DNA of 43,722 bases from a virus. Of this stretch, positions 1-43,512 are shown piece by piece. The stretch spans positions 771 through 44,492 of the IMG/VR virus record IMGVR_UViG_3300005290_000008; one strand, given 5' to 3'. How positions within the stretch are numbered: the stretch's first letter is position 1; each line of letters starts with the position of its first letter. The notes under the pieces were generated by a model. It worked only from the letters and a program-made list of their open reading frames with translations. It had not been told where the DNA came from and made no database searches. A program made the position numbers and the translations under genes.

Positions 1-183
1 GCAACAGACAATAGCTGTATTGTATTGCCTGTTGGATTGCGACCTCCAGCAACTATGATCTTTCCGGCAAACGGATCTACACGGGCAGCTGGGAACGTAA
101 CTATCACCTCAGATGGTAACGTCACATGTTTTCGCTCCAGCAACGGAAGTCTCGATTTGTCTTGTGTTTCGTTCTATCCGTAA
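1..183 (+). CDS. Tail fibre / receptor-binding protein, C-terminal fragment
   Basis: The reading frame is open from the first base to a TAA at 181-183, giving the last 60 residues of a larger protein cut by the window edge. The fragment is rich in small and polar residues (repeated T/S-x-N-G and DGNVT turns) and ends SCVSFYP. This resembles the C-terminal beta domain of siphovirus tail fibre or tip proteins. A bidirectional terminator follows, as expected for the end of a late operon. Function is inferred from composition and from the terminal position after the tail genes. No catalytic motif is visible. Confidence 0.5.
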   Translation, partial: ATDNSCIVLPVGLRPPATMIFPANGSTRAAGNVTITSDGNVTCFRSSNGSLDLSCVSFYP

Positions 184-2081: not shown

Positions 2082-2602
2082 TCGCTTGCTCCCGATTCGG
2101 TGGGTTTGATGTTCAGCGCTTCAACGATTGAGGCTTCAAGTTCGTCGTAGCGCATTCCGCGAATCACGTTCAGCGCACGGTGCAGCAGGCCGCGTTGAGC
2201 CACATTCCGCTGCTCGGCGGCTGTCAGGCGCTGTTGAAGTTCGATGTTTTCGCCGGAACCGTCACATGAAGTACACGCGTCGGATACCGATTCGGTGGGT
2301 TTGAGGGCTGCGTCCAGTGCTCCACGATAGAAACTGATGAACGTGTGTTGGTTGCTGCGCATTTCTTTTAGTAGCCCGACCAGCTTCTCATTCTGTTTCT
2401 CAGCAGCTATCAAGTCTCGCTGAAGCCGAACACCTGCAAGCATTTCACGGTCGCGGGATTCCTTGGCCTGATACAGCTCTTCCCGCAGCGCAGCAAGTTC
2501 AGATTGGGCGGCGGTCCAAGGAGTCCAGCTATCCTCATCAGGCTCAGAATCTTCAACCATTCTGGCGCATTCATCTATTCGATACGCTTTCACTTCACTC
2601 AT
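2078..2602 (-). CDS. Coiled-coil accessory protein with CxxCxGxG motif, 174 aa
   Basis: Two long heptad regions (about residues 33-85 and 118-150) flank a CTSCDGSG motif near residue 111, half of a DnaJ-type zinc knuckle. The ribosome site GGAGG lies about 9 nt before the ATG. The stop couples by ATGA to the next gene. Phages often carry such variable coil proteins near Ea22-like genes. Function unknown; the single CxxCxGxG may bind metal only as a dimer. Confidence 0.7.
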   Translation of the reverse strand: MSEVKAYRIDECARMVEDSEPDEDSWTPWTAAQSELAALREELYQAKESRDREMLAGVRLQRDLIAAEKQNEKLVGLLKEMRSNQHTFISFYRGALDAALKPTESVSDACTSCDGSGENIELQQRLTAAEQRNVAQRGLLHRALNVIRGMRYDELEASIVEALNIKPTESGASE

Positions 2603-2861: not shown

Positions 2862-3116
2862 CTAATCCTCCATGCTCAATTCTGCCTGCTCTGGATCTTC
2901 CATGTCTACTGCGTCAGAGTCGAATTTGCACTCCCATACGTGACTGTAGAGTGAAGAGTACATTTCGTAGCTGATACCGCCAACGAGCAGAGCACCACGC
3001 AGCATGCCGAAGATGTGCTTGTATTCGCTGGTACGTGAGCGCTGGAATTTGTCGTCAGCGAAGGAAATAGCGCGGTGAATTTGCTTTACGAACTCTGTTT
3101 GATTCTTGGTATGCAT
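2862..3116 (-). CDS. Hypothetical early protein, 84 aa; first gene of the leftmost operon
   Basis: I use the ATG at 3116, which has AGGAG 7 nt upstream. An upstream in-frame ATG at 3161 would lie over the promoter. The product is helical and charged, with a central hydrophobic stretch (FGMLRGALLVGGISYEMY) and an acidic tail. No family is recognised. As the first gene behind a good sigma70-like promoter (3143-3172) it should be expressed early. Confidence 0.7.
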   Translation of the reverse strand: MHTKNQTEFVKQIHRAISFADDKFQRSRTSEYKHIFGMLRGALLVGGISYEMYSSLYSHVWECKFDSDAVDMEDPEQAELSMED

Positions 3117-3142
3117 TGGGTTGCTCCTGTTGGCTTGCAGTA

Positions 3143-3172
3143 ATTGTATTCCGCCATGCACATGAAAGGCAA
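3143..3172 (-). promoter_or_regulatory. Sigma70-like promoter for the left minus operon
   Basis: On the minus strand, TTGCCT (-35, 3167-3172) and TACAAT (-10, 3143-3148) are separated by 18 nt, some 27 nt before the ATG at 3116. It drives the accessory operon 3116 to 285. Confidence 0.55.
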
Positions 3173-3180
3173 TATATTTT

Positions 3181-3189
3181 TGTTAAGAT
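3181..3189 (+). promoter_or_regulatory. Extended -10 promoter of the lysis genes
   Basis: TGTTAAGAT, a TGn extended -10 box, lies 27 nt before the endolysin ATG and back to back with the minus promoter. It matches the TGnTAAAAT family seen before the structural genes, which suggests late expression. Confidence 0.45.
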
Positions 3190-3215
3190 GGAGATATATT
3201 TTAGAGGCGCACAAA

Positions 3216-5172: not shown

Positions 5173-5655
5173 TCAGGCACCCATCAGGTAGTGAGCAGGG
5201 GCGAACGGGATTCCGTCATCCAGCGGATCGGCGCCGGGTGGTGCTGCCTGCTGGCTTTGTTGTGGGCGTGATTGCTGCTGTGTGCGAGGCGATGCATTAC
5301 CACCATCAGCCGGCTTTCCGCCCAACAACTGCATAGTGCCCTGCATGTCAACGACGATCTCAGTTGAGTACCGCTTGATGCCATCTTTCTCCCATTCACG
5401 TGTTTTTAGCTTGCCCTCGATGTAGATCTGACCGCCTTTACGGCAGTGTTCGCCTGCGATCTCTGCGACCTTTCCAAACAGCACGACCCTGTGCCATTCA
5501 GTTGTTTCTTTCTTCTCCCCTGATTGTTTGTCTTTCCACTGCTCACTTGTCGCTAGACTCAGATTGCAGACGGCGTTTCCGTTGCCAAGGTATTTCACTT
5601 CAGGATCTTGACCCAAAGTGCCCACAAGAATTACTCGATTAACACCACGTGCCAT
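5173..5655 (-). CDS. ssb: Single-stranded DNA-binding protein SSB, 160 aa
   Basis: The N-terminal OB fold is unmistakable: [19 protein letters not shown], then [44 protein letters not shown]-rich linker follows, then the acidic tip LDDGIPF. Here the tip is not terminal but followed by nine residues (APAHYLMGA), a variation I have seen in phage SSBs. The protein coats ssDNA during replication and recombination. The start codons overlap the end of an HNH homing gene, and a second, truncated copy of the same first codons sits at 6214-6249 (see that entry). Confidence 0.96.
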
Positions 5656-6169
5656 TTTCGTTACGCTCTCTGTTTATGCCGCTGAGTTTGTCTATCATTC
5701 GGTGGTGCCTACCATGACCCGAAAGAGTCATTAAAGCAAGATTGTTTTCATCATTATTTTCCTTGTCTTCGTCGATGTGATGCACGCATTCATCGTCTTT
5801 TAGAGGCCGCCCTAAACGAGTCTCCATGATTGCTACGTGCTTCGACTTTCCTTTGTTCGGGCCTCTAGTGAATTCAATGTATCCACTTTGCTTAAGGGTC
5901 TCGCCTTTTGCGAATTCTTCTCCATGCTTAAGCCTTGCAAGGCTGATGTTTTCCTTCCATTCCTCTGTGAAGACCCTGGTCTTTCCAAGCATGTGAGAGA
6001 GCCTGCCTTTTTCTGCGGCATTCCTTACACCGTCACCTCTACTCCTGAGAGCGCCAGCAAGTTTTACGTGGTATCTAACAGTGCTACGGCTTTTGCCTGT
6101 AATTTCAGAAACCTCAGGTATGCTTTTCCCTGACTTGTACAGATCAACAATATCTTCAAAGCTATGCAT
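5639..6169 (-). CDS. HNH homing endonuclease with N-terminal HTH, 176 aa
   Basis: Residues 1-40 are an HTH ([20 protein letters not shown]). The C-terminal third has the HNH core: [20 protein letters not shown], then GHGRHHR. The gene is inserted at the very start of ssb: its last codons overlap the first 17 bp of ssb. GGAGG lies 6 nt before the ATG. It would nick or cut an intronless ssb allele and copy itself by repair. Its AT-richness relative to ssb supports foreign origin. Confidence 0.88.
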
Positions 6170-26006: not shown

Positions 26007-26094
26007 CTTGACAAACACAAAAACACCATCTCCCAAATGTCCACGATCCATAAACCGTGGACATTTGCGTTTTGGTGTTTTCTCATTTGTCAAG
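26007..26094. repeat. 88-bp imperfect inverted repeat (39-bp arms)
   Basis: Arms 26007-26045 and 26056-26094 match at 31 of 39 positions without gaps, around a 10-nt loop. Outer ends CTTGACAAA/TTTGTCAAG and inner stem AAATGTCCACG are perfect. It lies between convergent genes and includes the stop codon of the minus gene. Most simply it is a strong bidirectional terminator, but it is longer than any other here. Confidence 0.8.
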
Positions 26095-26988
26095 TTTGCG
26101 CTTTGCTCGCTCGATGATTCCGGGGGAGAGTGGGTTTCCTTTGTCGTCGACAAGTACGCTAACCGTGGAACATTTGCAGTTGATACTTTGCCCAGACTCT
26201 GCCCACCATGCGCGCTGATCTGCTACAGAGTGCAAGGTTCCATGACGAGCACGGTGATTCGGCCTAGTGGTCGGTGACAGTGCGCTTAGGTGTAGCTCAA
26301 GAGTCTTGATGCCTAGATCAACCCGCGCAGTCTCAGCCTCGTCCATGCGTGCTTGACGGAAGGCGTTACCAACTTCGGTACGTGCAATCCGTTCGCCTCT
26401 GCGCTGATTGATTCCAGTACTTGCCGCAATGTCTTTGGCTATGATCCTTGGATTGAGCCCTGCAATCATTCCGCGAGTAAGCGCGCCCGCTAGATCCGTC
26501 TTCGCTTGTGCCGTAAAACCTTTCATGAGCTCAAACTCTCGCGCACGCAGGAGTCCGATACGCTTACGGTATGGCTCGCTGAATAGGATGGCATCAAGTG
26601 ATGGCTTTGTTAGCGCGTATAGTTCGCTCTGCACTGTTAGGTTCGCAGCCTGTACTGCCGTACCCTGGATGTATGCAGGCTCTACATAAGCGCGCATGCT
26701 CCACAATTCTTGCTCGCCACCTTCCAGCAGGATCAGTTCTGCGATTCGCTCAATCTCGCTGTTGATGCCCAGCAAAATCGCCTGATCAAGCTCAAATTGG
26801 TAGCTTGTGGCATTCGTCTGCATGGCGTTAAGGGTGATGACCGTGTAGTTCTGATCGCGCAGAATCCTCAAGACCTCTTTGCCAACAGCAGCTACGCGCC
26901 TATCAAAGTCGCGGATGAATTTCCTCTCTCTAGAATCCATCCCGGTCGGGTCATCAAGTGTTCTAGGGAGAATCGGTTGCCCTGGCAT
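26083..26988 (-). CDS. Minor head protein, SPP1 gp7 / Mu F-like, 301 aa
   Basis: The C-terminal half carries the Mu F signature: RIARTEVGNAFRQARMDEAE, LHLSALSPTTRPNHRARHGT, then WWAESGQSINCKCS. It should bind the portal and help initiate head assembly or protect the first DNA. I use ATG 26988 (AGGTGA 6 nt upstream); the frame extends upstream to 27177 only by chance. It lies on the minus strand, opposite to most structural genes, downstream of the portal in transcription order. Confidence 0.85.
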   Translation of the reverse strand: MPGQPILPRTLDDPTGMDSRERKFIRDFDRRVAAVGKEVLRILRDQNYTVITLNAMQTNATSYQFELDQAILLGINSEIERIAELILLEGGEQELWSMRAYVEPAYIQGTAVQAANLTVQSELYALTKPSLDAILFSEPYRKRIGLLRAREFELMKGFTAQAKTDLAGALTRGMIAGLNPRIIAKDIAASTGINQRRGERIARTEVGNAFRQARMDEAETARVDLGIKTLELHLSALSPTTRPNHRARHGTLHSVADQRAWWAESGQSINCKCSTVSVLVDDKGNPLSPGIIERAKRKLDK

Positions 26989-27013: not shown

Positions 27014-27034
27014 ATTTTAGCATTGTGGTAGAAT
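27014..27034. promoter_or_regulatory. Back-to-back extended -10 promoters
   Basis: On the minus strand TGCTAAAAT (27014-27022) serves the head gene. On the plus strand TGGTAGAAT (27026-27034) serves the homing gene. Only 9 bp separate the hexamers, so the two cannot easily fire together. Confidence 0.5.
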
Positions 27035-27040
27035 TGAATC

Positions 27041-27125
27041 GCGGCTATCCCGGCCAGGAGAAAAGGCTTAACGCTGAAAGCTCTGCCGCAACATTTCATC
27101 AGCGAAACCTTCAGCGAGGTTTTTA
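27041..27125 (+). ncRNA. Structured 5' leader RNA of homing gene, copy Y
   Basis: P1 GCGGC (27041)/GCCGC (27085); P2 TCC-CGGCCA-GGA (27048-27059); P3 GGCTT (27065)/AAGCT (27078), whose loop ACGCTG can pair with CAGCG at 27100 or 27112. The second CAGCG abuts GAGG, the ribosome site for GTG 27126. P1 starts six bases after the -10 box. The same fold with compensatory changes recurs at 42890-42966. Confidence 0.7.
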
Positions 27126-28028
27126 GTGATTTCAATCGGTCATCAGTGGTCTTGCGACAACGGCGCAAAACTAACATTCATCTCAGAATCAAAGCAAATC
27201 AACGGGCATCGTGTCGCGGTATTGAAATGCTCTATCTGCTCAAAAGATAAACAGCTTTGGCCTGCCGGATCCATAAGATCGAAGATACCGCACCTCAACA
27301 CAGGGAGGCGTCCGTGCGGATGCTCAATTTCTCCAAAGTGGTCTGCTAGTCAGCAGGCTCTTAGGGCATCAAGGGCTTTAGCTGAAGACGGTTATTTTTT
27401 CATCGCATGGGAAAATGAATTCAAAGGAAAAGAATCAAAGCTGATTGCTCACTGCCCAAAACACGGCAGCTTCAATGTGGCGATGGGTCATTTAATGACA
27501 AGCGGTACTCGCTGCCAGTCCTGCGGAAATTTGAGAAAGTTATTCTCCGAGCCGGAGATTATGGAGAGACTCAGCGAGTCAATTCTTGGGCGTAACTGGT
27601 CATTCTCTAGATTTGTTGGCAGCTTCAACGGGTACGCATCAAGAGCAATAATGGAGTGTTCTCAGCATGGCGAGTGGGAAGCATCTATCGACACAATTTA
27701 TCGACACAGATGCGGATGCCCGTCTTGCGCTGCTAACGGTTTTCAAAACTGTAAGCGATCAGTTGTATATGCGCTTAGAAGCGATTGCGGAGCCTACATA
27801 AAGGTGGGTATATCCGGGCAGCCAAAGAAAAGATTCCTCAAGCTTTCTCGGTCAACGCCTTTTGATTTTGTGGTTGTTCGCATCATTAGATGCGCTGGCA
27901 ACAAAGCCATTGCAATTGAATCAAGGATTCACGCGACATTTGAAACGGCAGGATTCAAGGGATGGGACGGCGCAACCGAATGGTTAAAATACGACCCATC
28001 AATAATTGACGCGCTCAACACTCACTAA
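27126..28028 (+). CDS. Homing endonuclease-like protein: zinc repeats + GIY-YIG-like domain, 300 aa
   Basis: GTG 27126 has GAGG 7 nt upstream. The N-terminal two thirds contain zinc-ribbon repeats of the C-x-x-HG...CxxC type (AHCPKHGSF...CQSCG; ECSQHGEW...CPSCA). The C-terminal 90 residues (VVYALRSDCGAYIKVGISGQ, AIAIESRIHATFETAGFKGW, DGATEWL) are a GIY-YIG-related nuclease of the T5orf172/Mug113 kind. The gene sits on the plus strand between two minus-strand head genes and carries its own promoter, leader and terminator. It is a close architectural partner of the gene at 34054. Confidence 0.75.
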   Translation: MISIGHQWSCDNGAKLTFISESKQINGHRVAVLKCSICSKDKQLWPAGSIRSKIPHLNTGRRPCGCSISPKWSASQQALRASRALAEDGYFFIAWENEFKGKESKLIAHCPKHGSFNVAMGHLMTSGTRCQSCGNLRKLFSEPEIMERLSESILGRNWSFSRFVGSFNGYASRAIMECSQHGEWEASIDTIYRHRCGCPSCAANGFQNCKRSVVYALRSDCGAYIKVGISGQPKKRFLKLSRSTPFDFVVVRIIRCAGNKAIAIESRIHATFETAGFKGWDGATEWLKYDPSIIDALNTH

Positions 28029-28057: not shown

Positions 28058-29425
28058 CTATTGCACGGCTGCCGGATCTTCTGGCGGGGCAATATCTGGT
28101 AGCGGCGGCAACTCTACATCGTTGTCATAGCCACCAACCTCGCGCATCTCTTCAGCCGTGAATACAGGCTGCCCACTAGCAAGCATCTTGCTATTCACAT
28201 CAGCCATCTTGACGACAATGCTGATCTTCTCGTCCTTGCTAGCCTCGGTCAGATCATCCCAGCATACCGAGTATTCCAGAGTAAGCAGAACACCAAGCCG
28301 CATCAGATGATCAACAAACGTCTCAATATCCGACGACAGCAGGCTAACTCGGCGACCTTGGCAACGCTTGTTAAACGTCTTCTGGTCCTCTGTGGACGCA
28401 CGCTCGCCAGTCTGATTGCCAACGATGATCTTGGACGGGATGCGGATAGAGGCGCAGAAGGATTGCAGGGATACGTCGAAGGCCGGGATTGGATCTGGAA
28501 CGTTCGCTACCAGAGGCGTTACGGTAGCGCCCTTGGTGATTACCGTCTGATCCTGCCCACGGTTCATGCCGCGCGTTACTTCGTCGAAGATCTCTTGCAG
28601 CTCGCCGGTAGCCACGCCATGAGCGCGGGCAATAGCGTCCAGGTCAACCTCTTTATCGAAGTTGATCGCCAATTGACGGCTAGCGTTCTTCAGGAAGGAT
28701 TCGCCCGAACCGCCAAGCACCTTCTCCATATTCACGCAGTCGTTGAAGCCGGCTTGCAGGAAGGGGATGCCATTGCGCATGTCGCCGATTACAACAACGC
28801 GATCAGGGTGAACAGTGATGATTCGGCCTGGCTCGCCATCTTTGTTCGTGTTGAGCGCGTTTTCGGTATAAATGAACTCTTTAGGCTTGCCGAAATTGAT
28901 ATCTGCCGGGTTATCGTACCAAGCAGAAACCCAAATCTGAGCCTCCCAAGCCGGGATCAGGTTAATCAATTGCTGCTCAGAAGCTTTGCCTACTGGCTGA
29001 TCCCACTGCTTCGAATCCTTGAATTGCAGAAGGATGCACGAATAACGCCCAACGAGACGGCGCATATCAGCATCGCGGAACTTCTCCCACAGCTTCAGGC
29101 GTTTGGCGAGCTTCTTGAATTGCTTCTCCCAAGCAGTCGGGGCCTCTGCGCGATCTTCCTCGTCGCCTTCGATAACCTCGGGGTCAGTAGACCAGCAGTT
29201 CTCGTTGAGCGTCATTACCGCGCCATGAGCAATACCACCGCGCTCGAATAGGCGATAGTAGTCGTTGAAGCAGAGAACATCCTTATAGCCGTAGCTGCAC
29301 CAGGCATCAGGGCGCTTATTGTCAATCCCGCCCATCAGCAGAGACTGGCGGCTCATCACAGCCTGACGCTCGCTCAATGCCGAGTTCAGCGCCAAATCTA
29401 GTGCAGGCGTGCGTTTCACAGTCAT
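28058..29425 (-). CDS. Portal protein, DUF1073-like family, 455 aa
   Basis: FNDYYRLFERGGIAHGAVMT and LNENCWSTDPEVIEG are typical of the DUF1073/phage_portal_3 family. IPSKIIVGNQTGERASTEDQ matches its C-terminal crown region. The dodecameric portal forms the packaging and head-tail vertex. Transcription runs leftward, opposite to terminase and capsid genes. The start codon lies inside a 10-bp dyad that also contains its -10 box. Confidence 0.88.
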   Translation of the reverse strand: MTVKRTPALDLALNSALSERQAVMSRQSLLMGGIDNKRPDAWCSYGYKDVLCFNDYYRLFERGGIAHGAVMTLNENCWSTDPEVIEGDEEDRAEAPTAWEKQFKKLAKRLKLWEKFRDADMRRLVGRYSCILLQFKDSKQWDQPVGKASEQQLINLIPAWEAQIWVSAWYDNPADINFGKPKEFIYTENALNTNKDGEPGRIITVHPDRVVVIGDMRNGIPFLQAGFNDCVNMEKVLGGSGESFLKNASRQLAINFDKEVDLDAIARAHGVATGELQEIFDEVTRGMNRGQDQTVITKGATVTPLVANVPDPIPAFDVSLQSFCASIRIPSKIIVGNQTGERASTEDQKTFNKRCQGRRVSLLSSDIETFVDHLMRLGVLLTLEYSVCWDDLTEASKDEKISIVVKMADVNSKMLASGQPVFTAEEMREVGGYDNDVELPPLPDIAPPEDPAAVQ

Positions 29426-30425: not shown

Positions 30426-30471
30426 GTGCGTGCATGTTAAACTTGATTGGCTATCTAAAGAGAGATGATTG

Positions 30472-31155
30472 ATGAAGCAGTGCACCGGATGCAAAATCAC
30501 CAAACAGAGAACAGAATTCAGCGTGGCAACCGCGAAAAAGAGTGGATTGCAGCCTAGATGCAAGCAATGCCAAAGAGAATACAGAGATGCAAATAAGCAC
30601 AAGATCAGGGCTAGATACGCAGCTAACAAGGAAGAGATAAATGCAAAAACAAGAGCATATTATGCTGAAAACAGGGAGGCTTGCCTTGCTCAAAAGAAGG
30701 AGTATTACGAGAAAAATAGAGACCCAATACTAAAATACGCAAAGGAAAATCAAGCTTTAGCCAACGCCAGGCACGCTAAGCGATGGAAGGAGGACGCAAC
30801 CTTTAGGGCTTCTAGGCTCCTTCGCGCAAGAGTGGCTCACGCTGCGAGAATGCTCAGGCAAGATGTTACATGCGGCAAGCCAATTCGCTTAAGTATGGAG
30901 GTAATCAAGTCTCGTATAGAGTTCAATTTTCAACCAGGCATGTCTTGGGCCAATTATGGAGAATGGCAGATAGATCATGTAAAGCCTGTGGCTGCATTTG
31001 CGGTTCAGGGTCTTGATGTCAATATGGCGAACCTGCCCTGCAACCTAAAGCCAATTTGGAAGAAAGACAATGTGTTAAAATCTTCGACATTCAAAGGCGT
31101 GTTTTGGCGCTACAAGTCCACGCAGAGTGCTAAGAATGAAGAAGACAAGGGTTAA
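30472..31155 (+). CDS. HNH homing endonuclease with N-terminal zinc finger, 227 aa
   Basis: The N-terminus KQCTGCKITKQRTEFS...CKQCQREYR is a CxxC-CxxC finger. A long charged helix follows (YAANKEEINAKTRAYYAENR). The C-terminus is an HNH: GEWQIDHVKPVAAFAVQG, then NLPCNLKPIWKKDN. A TGTTAAACT promoter box lies at 30435-30443. Its last 20 bp overlap the start of the prohead protease gene, the same arrangement as the HNH gene at ssb. It is AT-richer than its neighbours. Confidence 0.85.
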   Translation: MKQCTGCKITKQRTEFSVATAKKSGLQPRCKQCQREYRDANKHKIRARYAANKEEINAKTRAYYAENREACLAQKKEYYEKNRDPILKYAKENQALANARHAKRWKEDATFRASRLLRARVAHAARMLRQDVTCGKPIRLSMEVIKSRIEFNFQPGMSWANYGEWQIDHVKPVAAFAVQGLDVNMANLPCNLKPIWKKDNVLKSSTFKGVFWRYKSTQSAKNEEDKG

Positions 31156-33899: not shown

Positions 33900-33916
33900 C
33901 ACTCAGATGTAAAATA

Positions 33917-33953: not shown

Positions 33954-34148
33954 ATGAAAGAGTTTATGATCACAGAGCGCGGTTATTTCATTGATGGCGT
34001 TGAGCAGAAAATTGGATCTCGCCATAGATTCGAATCAATGCCTTCTATCTTGGTTAACAAGGCAAAAGAGGTTGGTGCTTCTGAGTTGACGCTAGAGGTA
34101 GCCACGCCTCGGCGCGGAAGACCACCGAAGGACTCTGCTCAAAAATAG
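33954..34148 (+). CDS. Hypothetical protein with AT-hook-like tail, 64 aa
   Basis: ATG 33954 has AGGTGG 5-6 nt upstream. The globular part (EFMITERGYFIDGVEQKIGS) is followed by a basic tail RRGRPPKDSAQK resembling an AT-hook. Position after the capsid gene suggests a head-associated role. The last 95 bp are overlapped on the other strand by the 3' end of a homing gene. Confidence 0.65.
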   Translation: MKEFMITERGYFIDGVEQKIGSRHRFESMPSILVNKAKEVGASELTLEVATPRRGRPPKDSAQK

Positions 34149-34989
34149 ACACGATATCTTCATCGTATCTAAGCCATTCAGTACATCCATCGAACCCAGA
34201 CAGTCCTGCGCTCATGAACCTGGATTGAATTTCCATTTCCTTGTCATGAGCCATTCCGCCATCTGTAAATATTTTTCGATGCAGCGTGAACTCAAATGGT
34301 GTTGCGTTGGCTAGCTTGACCATTCTCGTTTTTATGTCAGCAGTTATCCCGACCTTAAGGAATGCACAGTCTTTTGACTTAAGGCAGTAAAGGTATGCTG
34401 GCTCAGTTCTTTTGTAGCCATACCCGGCGCAAGAAGGGCAGCCAGCACCACGGGCATGCGAGCTTGCTTCCTGCTCGAACTCTCCGTGATCGCGACAGGT
34501 GACTACAATCTTTTTATCCATGCGAATAAATTTAGTCCTGGAGTAGTCGTATATTTCGCCGTGAGTTTCTCTAGCCCTAGCTATAAACGATACCGTGTTG
34601 TATTTCTTACCCGAGCAATACTGGCATCCGTATCCTCTAATAAAATCACTTGCTATCATCTCGAACTTCCCGTGATCAGAGCATTCGGCAGTGATTCTGG
34701 ATTTGTTGTTTATGTAGACGGTTTCTTCATATCCATACCTTTCGCCATGAACAGATTTGACTCTATCAATAAACTCTTCCTGCGTTGGTCTATAGACTCC
34801 GCCGCACTTTGGGCACCCATCGCCCCGGCAGTGCGATCTAGGCTTCTGAAGAAACGGGCCGTGCTCCCTGCAAACAATCCTAACCTTTGACTCTGAAGCC
34901 GAATATTCTGATAGCGAATAATCGTAACGGTCCCCATGTCTTTCTTTTGCTGATTTAACAAAGTCAGCTGTTGTTTTTCTAGCTACCAT
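34054..34989 (-). CDS. Homing endonuclease-like protein: triple zinc repeat + GIY-YIG-like domain, 311 aa
   Basis: Three repeats of about 60 residues (VRIVCREHGPFLQ...CPKCGG; ITAECSDHGKFEM...CQYCSG; IVVTCRDHGEFEQ...CPSCAG), each preceded by HG-x-x-YDYS, form DUF723-like zinc modules. The C-terminal nuclease (AYLYCLKSKDCAFLKVGITA, EMEIQSRFMSAGLSGFDGCT, EWLRYD) resembles that of gene 27126. Its last 27 residues lie antisense to the AT-hook gene, so it seems to have lost its own stop on insertion. Confidence 0.78.
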   Translation of the reverse strand: MVARKTTADFVKSAKERHGDRYDYSLSEYSASESKVRIVCREHGPFLQKPRSHCRGDGCPKCGGVYRPTQEEFIDRVKSVHGERYGYEETVYINNKSRITAECSDHGKFEMIASDFIRGYGCQYCSGKKYNTVSFIARARETHGEIYDYSRTKFIRMDKKIVVTCRDHGEFEQEASSHARGAGCPSCAGYGYKRTEPAYLYCLKSKDCAFLKVGITADIKTRMVKLANATPFEFTLHRKIFTDGGMAHDKEMEIQSRFMSAGLSGFDGCTEWLRYDEDIVSIFEQSPSVVFRAEAWLPLASTQKHQPLLPC

Positions 34990-39831: not shown

Positions 39832-42392
39832 CCATTAGTGCCGGATCCATCCAATACCAGGTGGAAATCGAGACAGCTCAAGTTTTGACTGGCTCACAGA
39901 ATGTCAACAAGAGCCTTGACGGCCTGCAAACTGGCTTCAACAAAACCGACAAGGCAGCAGCTAACTCATCCAAGAGCATGAACACTCTCAGCAAGAGCAT
40001 GTCTACTGCCGGCAGTGAGTCGTCTAAATTTGGTACGGCGATCACTCCGCTAGCTGGCGCAATCGCCGGCATCGTGTCCGTGCAGGCTATTGCTAACTTG
40101 CAAAAGCTAAGCGAGCAATTCACGCTGCTCGAGTCCCGCGTTAAGCGTCTATCCGCAACTGCTGGCGATGCTAAGACAAACTATGCCGCGCTTGTCCAGA
40201 TCTCTTCCGCTGGCGGCTCTGATTTAACGACAACCATTAAGCTATGGGAAAGCCTGACGGCATCTCTGACTAGCCTTGGCGTCACTCGTGATCAAGTGCT
40301 TAGCCTGACCGACACACTGCAAAAGATTGGCAAGATTGGCGGTTCAAGCGCAGAAGAGATCAGCGCTGCATTGCGTCAATTCAGTCAGTCTGTAGCAGGC
40401 GGAACTCTGCGCGCTGAAGAATTCAACTCAATCATTGAGCAGATGCCAGAGCTTGGCCGAAAGATCGCTGATGGTCTCGGCATTCCGTTCAACGAACTTC
40501 GTCAGCAGATGCTTGACGGTAAGCTTACGATTGACCGCGTGCTGACTGCCATTCAAGAGCAGACTGGAAAGGTTAACGCTGAATTCAAGAACGTTCCTCG
40601 CTCTGTTGGTGACGCGAGCAACGCAATCGTCAACTCGATGGGCGTGGCGATATCCAAGATTGACCAGGCTGCCGGTGCTTCTCGTGCACTGGCTAAAGCA
40701 CTGGATGCCGTAGCTCTAGGTATCCGCCTGTCTTCTGGCCAGCTTGATGATCAGCAGCAGCTAAATAAACTTGTAACGGAGCGCGCAACTGCTGAGCAGC
40801 AGTATGCAACGCAGATAAAGTTCGGCTTGAAGGAGACGGCTGCTGCTACCCAGAAACGAATAGATGGCTATAACGCAGAGATTCAAGCAATTCAGGATAG
40901 AAAAGTTGCTCAGCAAAAAGCGGAAGGCGACAAGCTAAAGATCACTGCGCCTGCAAACGCTCCAAAGACCGATTCTCAAAAGGCTCTTGATGATCTTGCT
41001 AAAGAAGCTGAGCTAGCCAAGATTGTTGGAGTTGAGCGCGCAAAACTACAAGCCATACAGAAGCTAGGCGATAAGGCTACAGACGTAGAGAAAGCAAAGG
41101 CTGCGGAACTTGCTGCATCCATCTACAATCTTGAGACAGCTAGAAAGGCAGAAGGCGCGACCAACAAGAAAGCCAAAACCGAAGCAGAACAGCTAGCAAA
41201 TCGTGCGGCTGCTGCGGAGAAGAAAGGCATTGACGACAATATTAAGGCATTCCAAGAACTAGGCGTACAGCTTGCCTCTGTCGGGCAGAACGCTCGCGAT
41301 GTTGCCATGCAGCAAGCCGAGCTTAGCCTGAACAAGTATGCCACGCCTGAACAGATTAAGACTGTTCGCGATATGGCCGGCGCTCTGTATGATCTTAATC
41401 AGGCCAAGTCAAACAAGGCGCTGTTAGGGCAGATTGATCCAGCAGCCGGCGCAAAACAAGGACTAGAGAAACAACTGAAAGATCTGGATACGCTCAAGAC
41501 CGCCAAGATGCTGAGCGATACCGAATATCTGACATTCAAAGAGCAGGCGGAGACAGATTACAACGCTCGCATGACAGAGATTGAATTGCAGCGCTTCGCC
41601 GCACAGTCCGCTGGCAACGCCGCGATGGTTGCTGGATTCGATGCGCTGGCGGCTTCAGGAACTCAAGCGCTAAGCGGATTGCTGTCTGGGACTATGAGTC
41701 TTCAGGATGCTCTAGGAGGGATTGCTAATACTGTCCTTAATTCTGTTATCGGCTCTTTCGTTGATGCCGGCGTTGAATTTGTCAAACAGGAATTTGTCAA
41801 GCAAGCCGCCGTGCAAGCAACAGAAGCAGCGCAAATTGGCGGCATTGCCGCTGTAACAGCCACGCAGGCTGGCGCAACTGGCGCTATCGCAGCTACAACT
41901 ACAACTACAGCAGCTACAACTGGCGCAGCAGTGGCCACCTCTATGGCCCCTGCGGCGGGCCTGTCTTCTATCGCCTCGTTCGGTGGCGCTGCGGTAATCG
42001 GTGGCTCAGCATTACTGGCCACGATGCTGCTCGCAAAATCATTCAGCGGTAAAGCCTTGGGTGGGCCAGTTCAAGCAGACGGCATGTATCGCGTGAACGA
42101 AACAGGCGCTCCAGAGATCTTTAATGCCGCGAATGGCCGTCAATACATGATGCCAAACAGCCGTGGCGACGTTGTCAGTCATAAAGACGCAACTAGCGGT
42201 GGCTCCGGTGGTGGCGCCGCACCAGTCGTTAACGTCCATAACTACAGCGGCCAACAAGCAAATGTAACCAGCAAATTCAGTGAAGCAGACCGCGCATACA
42301 TTATCGACGTAGTGGTCGGTGACGGAATGGGCGATGGCAAAACAGGTAGAATGATTAACTCGCTTACAGGCACGCGGAGACAAGGAACTTGA
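39828..42392 (+). CDS. Tail tape-measure protein, 854 aa
   Basis: The N-terminal tape-measure domain is clear: VAGGTLRAEEFNSIIEQMPE, LGRKIADGLGIPFNELRQQM. Long alanine/glutamine helices follow (AEKKGIDDNIKAFQELGVQL). A hydrophobic segment lies around residues 690-740 (GAIAATTTTTAATTGAAVAT and AAVIGGSALLATMLL). The C-terminus is glycine-rich. Its length predicts a tail of roughly 125-130 nm by the usual 1.5 angstrom per residue rule. It ends in TTGA coupling to the next gene. Confidence 0.95.
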   Translation: MTISAGSIQYQVEIETAQVLTGSQNVNKSLDGLQTGFNKTDKAAANSSKSMNTLSKSMSTAGSESSKFGTAITPLAGAIAGIVSVQAIANLQKLSEQFTLLESRVKRLSATAGDAKTNYAALVQISSAGGSDLTTTIKLWESLTASLTSLGVTRDQVLSLTDTLQKIGKIGGSSAEEISAALRQFSQSVAGGTLRAEEFNSIIEQMPELGRKIADGLGIPFNELRQQMLDGKLTIDRVLTAIQEQTGKVNAEFKNVPRSVGDASNAIVNSMGVAISKIDQAAGASRALAKALDAVALGIRLSSGQLDDQQQLNKLVTERATAEQQYATQIKFGLKETAAATQKRIDGYNAEIQAIQDRKVAQQKAEGDKLKITAPANAPKTDSQKALDDLAKEAELAKIVGVERAKLQAIQKLGDKATDVEKAKAAELAASIYNLETARKAEGATNKKAKTEAEQLANRAAAAEKKGIDDNIKAFQELGVQLASVGQNARDVAMQQAELSLNKYATPEQIKTVRDMAGALYDLNQAKSNKALLGQIDPAAGAKQGLEKQLKDLDTLKTAKMLSDTEYLTFKEQAETDYNARMTEIELQRFAAQSAGNAAMVAGFDALAASGTQALSGLLSGTMSLQDALGGIANTVLNSVIGSFVDAGVEFVKQEFVKQAAVQATEAAQIGGIAAVTATQAGATGAIAATTTTTAATTGAAVATSMAPAAGLSSIASFGGAAVIGGSALLATMLLAKSFSGKALGGPVQADGMYRVNETGAPEIFNAANGRQYMMPNSRGDVVSHKDATSGGSGGGAAPVVNVHNYSGQQANVTSKFSEADRAYIIDVVVGDGMGDGKTGRMINSLTGTRRQGT

Positions 42393-42877
42393 GTACTCTA
42401 ATTGAGCGCGTATATGCATCGGCAGGCTCGGAGGTCATCATTGACACTATCGAGCTTGCATGTCCTGCGTGGGATTCGTCGCTGTACATAGTCAAGGGTT
42501 ATGAGGACATGACGCTAGGTCTTGATGGCGTCACGTACAAGGAGTTCATGGCGGCTCCAATTTCTATTGCTCTACCAAAGAAGAGCAACCAAGGAAACCA
42601 GACGCTTAACTTCGCGATTGATAACGTCACGGGTCAGGCTCAGCGGTTGATTGATAATGCAATGGAAGCTGAGGCTCGTATCACGCTGACGTTTCGTCGG
42701 TATCTGAATGCTGATCTGACTACACCGTCTGAGAAGCCATTCTATGCGACGGTTCTTGGCGGGAATGTTACCGGGACAACTGTGCAGATTGAGGCTGGGT
42801 TCATCGATGCGCTAAATTATGCGTGGCCTCGAGCGCTTTATACGTCAGAGTTCGCTCCTGGTCTAAAATATTTATAG
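42389..42877 (+). CDS. DUF1833 minor tail protein, 162 aa, TTG start
   Basis: TTG 42389 overlaps the tape-measure TGA as TTGA with GGAG 9 nt upstream. VYASAGSEVIIDTIELACPA, GYEDMTLGLDGVTYKEFMAA and NQTLNFAIDNVTGQAQRLID are typical DUF1833 blocks, followed in many phages by an NlpC/P60 gene, as here. The C-terminus ends early (FAPGLKYL) where the downstream promoter begins. Confidence 0.85.
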   Translation: MSTLIERVYASAGSEVIIDTIELACPAWDSSLYIVKGYEDMTLGLDGVTYKEFMAAPISIALPKKSNQGNQTLNFAIDNVTGQAQRLIDNAMEAEARITLTFRRYLNADLTTPSEKPFYATVLGGNVTGTTVQIEAGFIDALNYAWPRALYTSEFAPGLKYL

Positions 42878-42883
42878 TAAAAT
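42864..42883 (+). promoter_or_regulatory. TAAAAT boxes before leader copy X
   Basis: TAAAAT at 42864-42869 and 42878-42883. The second lies six bases before P1 of the leader, the same spacing as in copy Y. Confidence 0.5.
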
Positions 42884-42889
42884 ATTAGT

Positions 42890-42966
42890 GCAGCTAGACC
42901 GGCCAGTCGAAGAGGGTTACGCCTACCCCTGCTGCAATACCCAAGGCGAATACATAAGGCGATGCT
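42890..42966 (+). ncRNA. Structured 5' leader RNA of HNH gene, copy X
   Basis: P1 GCAGC (42890)/GCTGC (42931); P2 GAC-CGGCCA-GTC (42897-42908); P3 GGGT (42914)/ACCC (42925) with loop TACGCCT. CGCCT in that loop pairs with AGGCG at 42944 or at 42957. The second AGGCG contains the AAGG ribosome site 7 nt before ATG 42967. All helices differ in sequence from copy Y yet pair, while CGGCCA and flanking purines are identical. Confidence 0.7.
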
Positions 42967-43512
42967 ATGAAAATTTCTCAAGAATATCTGAAGTCCCGGC
43001 TTAGCTATGATCCGCTTACCGGGATTTTTGTTTGGCTTTATCAGCAGGATTTCCCTCCTCAGTGGAATACTAATTACGCAGGAAAAATTGCAGGCGGAAT
43101 CAAAACTCATCCAAAAGGCTACAGATATATACAAATAAGCATTTTGAAGAAAGCCCATATCGCCCATAGACTTGCATGGCTGTACATGATGGGTGGTGAT
43201 CTCCCAGAGGCTGTCGATCACAAGAATCGTGACGCCACTGATAACAGGTGGGAGAATTTGCGCGATTCCAATGGCATGAACCAAAGGAACAGAAGCAAAA
43301 ACATAAATAACAAGTCGGGCATAACTGGCGTTTGCTGGGATTCCAGAAAGTCCAAGTGGCTTGTAATGGCTGGATGTACATACCTTGGAAGGTATGATGA
43401 TATAGAAGTGGCAAAGAATGTAGTAGAGAATTTTAGAATTGGAAGATTCGATCCAATGCACGGAATGATTCCTACACCATACTCAAAGGGATCTGAAAAT
43501 GCTTTGGCTTAA
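42967..43512 (+). CDS. HNH homing endonuclease with AP2-like DNA-binding end, 181 aa
   Basis: HNH core: IAHRLAWLYMMGGDLPEAVD, then DHKNRDATDNRWENLRDSNG with N-Q-R-N-R. An AP2-like segment KNINNKSGITGVCWDSRKSK follows. This is a standard phage HNH_3/AP2 homing enzyme. It separates the DUF1833 and NlpC genes, which are normally adjacent, and overlaps the NlpC start by 14 bp. It is AT-rich compared with its neighbours. Confidence 0.9.
   Translation: MKISQEYLKSRLSYDPLTGIFVWLYQQDFPPQWNTNYAGKIAGGIKTHPKGYRYIQISILKKAHIAHRLAWLYMMGGDLPEAVDHKNRDATDNRWENLRDSNGMNQRNRSKNINNKSGITGVCWDSRKSKWLVMAGCTYLGRYDDIEVAKNVVENFRIGRFDPMHGMIPTPYSKGSENALA

Follow-up and report, generated by a model that had tools for sequence, protein, structure and literature searches.

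The two leader RNAs of the window, that is, the whole analysed stretch of 43,722 nucleotides from the virus record IMGVR_UViG_3300005290_000008, are assigned to a known RNA family, int-alpA (Rfam RF02996). With moderate confidence, and from comparison of sequences, we read the int-alpA leaders as the 5' control region of mobile-gene mRNAs, in which an anti-Shine-Dalgarno loop (L3) would pair with either of two downstream repeats. The int-alpA RNA is real, conserved and more widely spread than its Rfam name suggests, and it is a known family rather than a new class.

The three-way junction of copy 1 (leader 27041-27125, plus strand throughout) spans 27041-27089 and comprises P1 (GCGGC/GCCGC, 27041-45 and 27085-89), P2 (TCC/GGA, 27048-50 and 27057-59) closed by L2 (CGGCCA, 27051-56), the linker J23 (GAAAA, 27060-64) and P3 (27065-69 and 27078-82), which carries L3 (AACGCTGA, 27070-77). 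The antisense element of L3 (CGCTGA, 27072-27077) is complementary at six of six positions to both repeat 1 (TCAGCG, 27099-27104) and repeat 2 (TCAGCG, 27111-27116), and the latter forms the six-base loop of hairpin P4 (AAACCT/AGGTTT, 27105-27122). A GAGG Shine-Dalgarno sequence overlaps repeat 2 and the 3' arm of hairpin P4. Six nucleotides ahead of P1 lies a -10-like box, TAGAAT (27029-27034), called from the sequence together with the -10 peak of the family. The leader is followed by a free-standing homing-type endonuclease gene with a GTG start (27126-28028, plus strand), whose product carries CapR repeats and a GIY-YIG-like domain (MUG113/T5orf172). This gene is placed between a MuF-like head gene (26083-26988, minus strand) and the portal gene (28058-29425, minus strand), on the strand opposite to both; these two genes point in the opposite direction to the terminase and other late genes. 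The related contig L044 shows this same arrangement, which is therefore not an error in the assembly of the window.

Copy 2 (leader 42890-42966, plus strand throughout) shows the same organization. Its three-way junction (42889-42936) is built from a P1 containing GCAGC/GCTGC (42889-94 and 42931-36), P2 (GAC/GTC, 42897-99 and 42906-08), an L2 identical to that of copy 1 (CGGCCA, 42900-05), J23 (GAAGA, 42909-13), P3 (GGGT/ACCC, 42914-17 and 42925-28) and L3 (42918-24), with an antisense element (CGCCT, 42920-42924) complementary to both repeats. Repeat 1 (AAGGCG) lies at 42943-42948; repeat 2 (AAGGCG, 42956-61), which is at the same time the Shine-Dalgarno sequence, is held in the loop of hairpin P4 (ATACAT/ATGCTAT with one bulged base, 42950-42968), whose 3' arm extends into the start codon of an HNH_3 homing endonuclease gene (42967-43512, plus strand). 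The -10-like box of this copy (TAAAAT, 42878-42883), called on the same grounds, stands directly behind the stop codon of a minor tail gene (42389-42877). Three more homing-type genes of the window have no leader RNA, namely an endonuclease-VII-like gene (30469-31155, plus strand), a CapR-like relative (34054-34989, minus strand) and an HNH_3 gene (5639-6169, minus strand).

P1, P2, the CGGCCA loop, the GAARA linker, P3 and the repeats had been proposed in an earlier sequence-only reading, and all of them are present in both copies where that reading had placed them; the two downstream genes, one with CapR repeats and a GIY-YIG-like domain and the other of the HNH_3 type, are unrelated, as it had held. 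The low identity that it described for the helices holds for them and does not extend to the junctions or L2, and overall the copies are about 60% identical. Hairpin P4 with repeat 2 inside it, the -10-like box 5-6 nt before P1 and the existing Rfam family are additions to that account.

The view that the structure matches no known class was wrong. When short segments were searched, RF02996 matched copy 1 with 33.2 bits (E 1.2e-5) over the full model length and copy 2 with 23.2 bits (E 0.0046), so the Rfam search that had been recommended did recover both copies by E-value, each below the gathering cut-off of 35.8 bits. A scan of the whole window at Rfam gathering scores gave no match, and RF02996 appears there only with an E-value threshold. 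The three-helix junction with the CUA, GAAAA and CCUG core, by which int-alpA is recognized, is present. The RF02996 model and the window leaders have in common the three-way junction, the core CUAG / CGAAAAG / CCUG, and a loop, CCuU, opposite a 3' AgGG that corresponds to repeat 1. The match of an independent model to both copies marks them as more than a product of chance. The assignment of both leaders to int-alpA as sub-threshold members, linked through intermediates, is supported at the level of sequence comparison. One such locus, L051, scores 44.8 bits against RF02996, above the cut-off, and has the promoter, P1, L2, repeats and hairpin P4 as in the window copies.

A first pattern, derived from the two window copies and fixing part of L3, retrieved L051 and three further IMG/VR loci (L043, L045 and L053), in all of which P1, P3 and the repeats are kept even though the pattern had not searched for them; ten of its 16 matches (L040, L042, L046-L050, L052, L054 and L055) were chance matches without the structure. 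The main search patterns used neither P3, nor the L3 pairs, nor the repeats, and together with two covariance models, R1 and R2, they yielded 208 places, 176 of them distinct, of which 165 passed simple structure filters. Many loci matching R1 or R2 also carry above-threshold RF02996 matches, and the cut-off was passed at most of nineteen loci sampled. A third covariance-model match in the window, at 33914, proved to be a terminator hairpin, and a similarity search of the DNA of both loci in named phages returned nothing useful.

The copies occur in phages and in bacteria of many phyla; judged by record titles, the hosts include Proteobacteria, Firmicutes, Planctomycetota, Nitrospirae and Chloroflexota, several of these records being metagenome bins whose single assignments are uncertain. 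RF02996 scores above its cut-off in 14 of 149 genomes from Enterobacteriaceae and their relatives. Pseudomonas phage D3 has a leader ahead of orf23 (L381 1482-1563, equivalent to NC_002484 14757-14838) with L3 AACGCCTG, repeats AAGGCG and AAGGTG and hairpin P4; it sits behind a minor tail gene, as does copy 2 of the window, and the two-gene unit resembles a moron cassette in that an annotated terminator closes it. Pantoea septica (G046:C7) contains five near-identical leaders with the same loop (L346 94-, 2037- and 4707-, and one each in L345 and L347), three of them within 5 kb; their repeats fit the loop less well, and they are perhaps a decaying or amplified element. Three leaders lie within 6 kb of one Brocadiia contig (L207 870, 3240 and 5678, minus strand), two of them sharing a loop. 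At another locus (L188 2879-2963, plus strand), a DUF3800-VII RNA (RF02967) follows the int-alpA leader about 800 nt downstream, and the DUF3800 RNA motifs may be worth a loop-repeat comparison.

Support for the structure comes from comparison, since folding energy is uninformative: by single-sequence folding energy, the leaders were not distinguishable from shuffles (z about 0), and the lowest-energy fold of copy 1 differs from the three-way junction. In an alignment of 53 sequences, 91.7% of the cells in the junction and L3-repeat 1 pairs were paired, and the covariation score was 0.634, compared with 0.192 in shuffled and at most 0.12 in slid alignments. A second alignment, of 104 sequences fitted to the model, scored 0.690 against 0.159; the search filters had in part selected for P1 and P2, and this larger alignment leans towards the model structure. 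The search for further copies with covariation gave about 165 distinct copies and strong covariation, and the selection on structure that had been suggested from two copies is strongly supported.

The pairing of the P3 loop with two tandem downstream repeats, likewise proposed from the two window copies, is confirmed as complementarity in both and strongly supported by the approximately 165 distinct copies. At least one perfect 5-bp Watson-Crick complement to L3 was found downstream for 112 of 121 distinct loops (shuffled mean 29.9, maximum 39), and at least two for 78 of 121 (shuffled mean 5.9, maximum 13), in a test that took one leader per distinct loop, dealt the loops to other leaders in 200 shuffles and ignored relatedness. 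With 121 different loops, inheritance alone is unlikely to have caused this match. In some paralogous leaders within one phage, L3 and both repeats change in concert while the remainder is nearly constant (G011, G031 and G034; L251); in the first three of these, L3 goes from CGTAGA to CACAGA as the repeats go from TCTACG to TCTGTG and from CTACG to CTGTG. In the 137 leaders that are followed by an ORF, the start of repeat 1 usually lies 13-16 nt after the start of the 3' strand of P1, and repeat 2 comes about 13 nt later, in most cases with 3-10 nt between its end and the start codon. A Shine-Dalgarno-like sequence was present in the repeat-2 zone of 132 of these leaders and in the repeat-1 zone of 63, and a hairpin P4 stem of at least 5 bp flanked repeat 2 in 110 of 137, against about 44 in shuffles. 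The two repeats are predicted to pair with similar energies; by these predictions L3 favours repeat 1 in 71 leaders and repeat 2 in 32.

The position of the leader relative to promoter and gene was equally regular. An ORF of at least 100 amino acids begins in the expected interval in 138 of 156 copies, compared with 26% at random positions. Of 74 cases with a good -10 box, 33 have 6 nt between its end and P1; this sharp peak is most pronounced in phages (43 of 71 with at least five of six matches), and the spacing places the likely transcription start at P1. The RNA is therefore probably the 5' end of an mRNA, as far as its sequence context indicates. For the window copies the start is taken from the family-wide -10 position, as the promoter scanner called no full sigma-70 site upstream of copy 2, nor on the leader strand upstream of copy 1. 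The RF02996 model, 71 nt long and typed as an sRNA, ends at repeat 1; it has no counterpart for repeat 2, hairpin P4 or the Shine-Dalgarno overlap, nor for the spacing to the promoter, the association with homing genes or the distribution over many phyla. The promoter and ORF spacing suggests an mRNA leader rather than an independent small RNA of the Rfam type.

The genes downstream of phage copies mostly encode HNH, GIY-YIG or endonuclease-VII proteins (HNH_3 in 20 of 69, endonuclease VII in about 11) and also include CapR/GIY-YIG types and DEAD helicases. On bacterial contigs they are more varied, with HNH proteins, integrases, Rha and many without assignment. The RNA family is not confined to homing genes, though these dominate in phages. 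When an E. coli phage was compared with its empty counterpart, leader and ORF formed a single insert right behind the stop codon of the tail-terminator gene; this insert opens with the -10 box and the leader and contains the endonuclease. In this one case the leader travels with its gene.

Taken together, these data suggest a portable regulator, probably translational in most copies, whose loop likely sets when the mobile genes are translated. Transcription would begin at or beside P1, judging from the -10 position, and the conserved junction would display L3 as an anti-Shine-Dalgarno element that may pair either with repeat 1, which lies shortly after P1, or with repeat 2, both pairings being supported by covariation. 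Repeat 2, which is the Shine-Dalgarno region, is usually shown in the loop of hairpin P4, and its pairing with L3 would block ribosome binding and repress translation. Repeat 1, which emerges first and is on average the slightly stronger partner, would keep L3 away, so that a fresh transcript could be translated. Of this predicted scheme, the comparison establishes that the RNA folds as described, that L3 has two alternative partners, that repeat 2 overlaps the Shine-Dalgarno sequence, that hairpin P4 is present and that the RNA stands in leader position, as well as, in one case, its co-mobility with the gene. In three gut-phage copies (L066, about 80-166, minus strand; L107, about 2162-2300, plus strand, between same-strand genes; L125, about 3080-3206, minus strand), an intrinsic terminator that precedes structural genes has repeat 2 in its 5' arm; these are possible transcription attenuators, in which the partner choice of L3 would control termination. 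Least certain is the step in trans, in which the L3 of a freed 5' fragment, or of a leader from another copy, might silence mRNAs, giving a burst of endonuclease followed by self-shutdown, as in P4 CI and P1 c4 control. Only tentatively, and with clear doubt, we extend the scheme to an RNA device in which the loop chooses between tandem targets and released junctions silence sister copies with loop-encoded specificity, such that homing genes would fire once on entry and then self-exclude or fall silent.

A mainly trans-acting small antisense RNA, in which a cut-off or terminated junction would silence the same mRNA family in a copy- or immunity-type control, has a small chance of being the better description. 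The Rfam type 'sRNA' speaks for it, as does the likeness in working to P4 CI (PMC4825925) and P1 c4, and hairpin P4 presents repeat 2 in its loop, much like the partners of loop-loop antisense pairs. Loops also differ within each multi-copy phage, being identical in none of 18 pairs from 13 such records; however, chance alone would have given about 0.5 identical pairs, so this difference is not significant and was rejected as proof of action in trans. Moreover, the same loop occurs in several copies within some bacterial genomes (G046, G051 and L207), and a terminator separating the junction from the ORF is absent from most copies.

A ligand-binding riboswitch, whose junction would bind a small molecule, with the L3-repeat 1 pairing as aptamer pseudoknot and repeat 2 as expression platform, is unlikely. 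The wholesale exchange of P2 and L2 (CGGCCA, UAGCU, UCGCU, CGACGG and others) around a near-constant core, the two mutually exclusive partners and the occurrence of Shine-Dalgarno as well as terminator platforms would fit. However, the invariance of the junction bases CUA, GAAAA and CU is partly due to the search patterns, L3 and both repeats vary over 121 sequences, and the downstream genes have mobility in common rather than metabolism. The invariant bases could nevertheless be a ligand or protein site that the anti-Shine-Dalgarno model leaves unused. That the RNA instead serves as a binding site for a protein of the phage or the host, such as a regulator or an RNase, is very improbable, because a protein site in the conserved junction core would leave two separate repeats that track L3 unexplained, and the encoded proteins are unrelated, which makes autoregulation by the product unlikely.

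For the preferred reading, a control region in which L3 would choose between two repeats, the leader position, the tandem target with Shine-Dalgarno overlap and hairpin P4, and the link to homing cassettes are new as far as checked. In the literature searched, which did not include the family's original description (reportedly by Weinberg and colleagues in 2017), no function is described for int-alpA, and its sole mention is a genome annotation. For a functionally uncharacterized Rfam family this offers a mechanism that can be tested, in which one loop follows two repeats and one of these is at the Shine-Dalgarno sequence; the phage D3 copy allows such a test in a laboratory phage. The self-restraint of free-standing homing endonucleases is known mainly from T4, and here the regulator rides inside the cassette.

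The homing genes of T4 are restrained by plain leader hairpins (PMC2988022). The hairpins that sequester the ribosome binding sites of I-TevI, segB and Aeh1 mobE (PMC2988022) resemble the int-alpA leaders in that a leader structure restrains homing-gene translation, but they are simple, do not form one family and lack a loop with a duplicated target.

The closest functional likeness is to the C4 RNA (RF01695; P4 CI and P1/P7 c4), also a three-helix RNA of phage transcripts that controls mobile-element genes through an anti-Shine-Dalgarno loop matching two targets, one of them at a Shine-Dalgarno sequence. This likeness is one of function and not of membership, as the sequence and the junction differ. 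RF01695 gave no match in the window at its gathering score, nor in the two leaders at E values up to 5, so membership of the leaders in the C4 family was rejected. Conversely, the P4 CI RNA scores 74.9 bits against RF01695, and R1 does not match P4 there, so the CI RNA was rejected as a member of the present family. The c4 RNA is processed from a longer transcript, as is the CI RNA, whereas the promoter of the int-alpA leaders abuts P1. The CI RNA, which has been found to arise by processing, pairs with two sites, seqA and seqC (PMC4825925). The targets of the P4 RNA flank it on either side, whereas both targets of the window leaders lie downstream.
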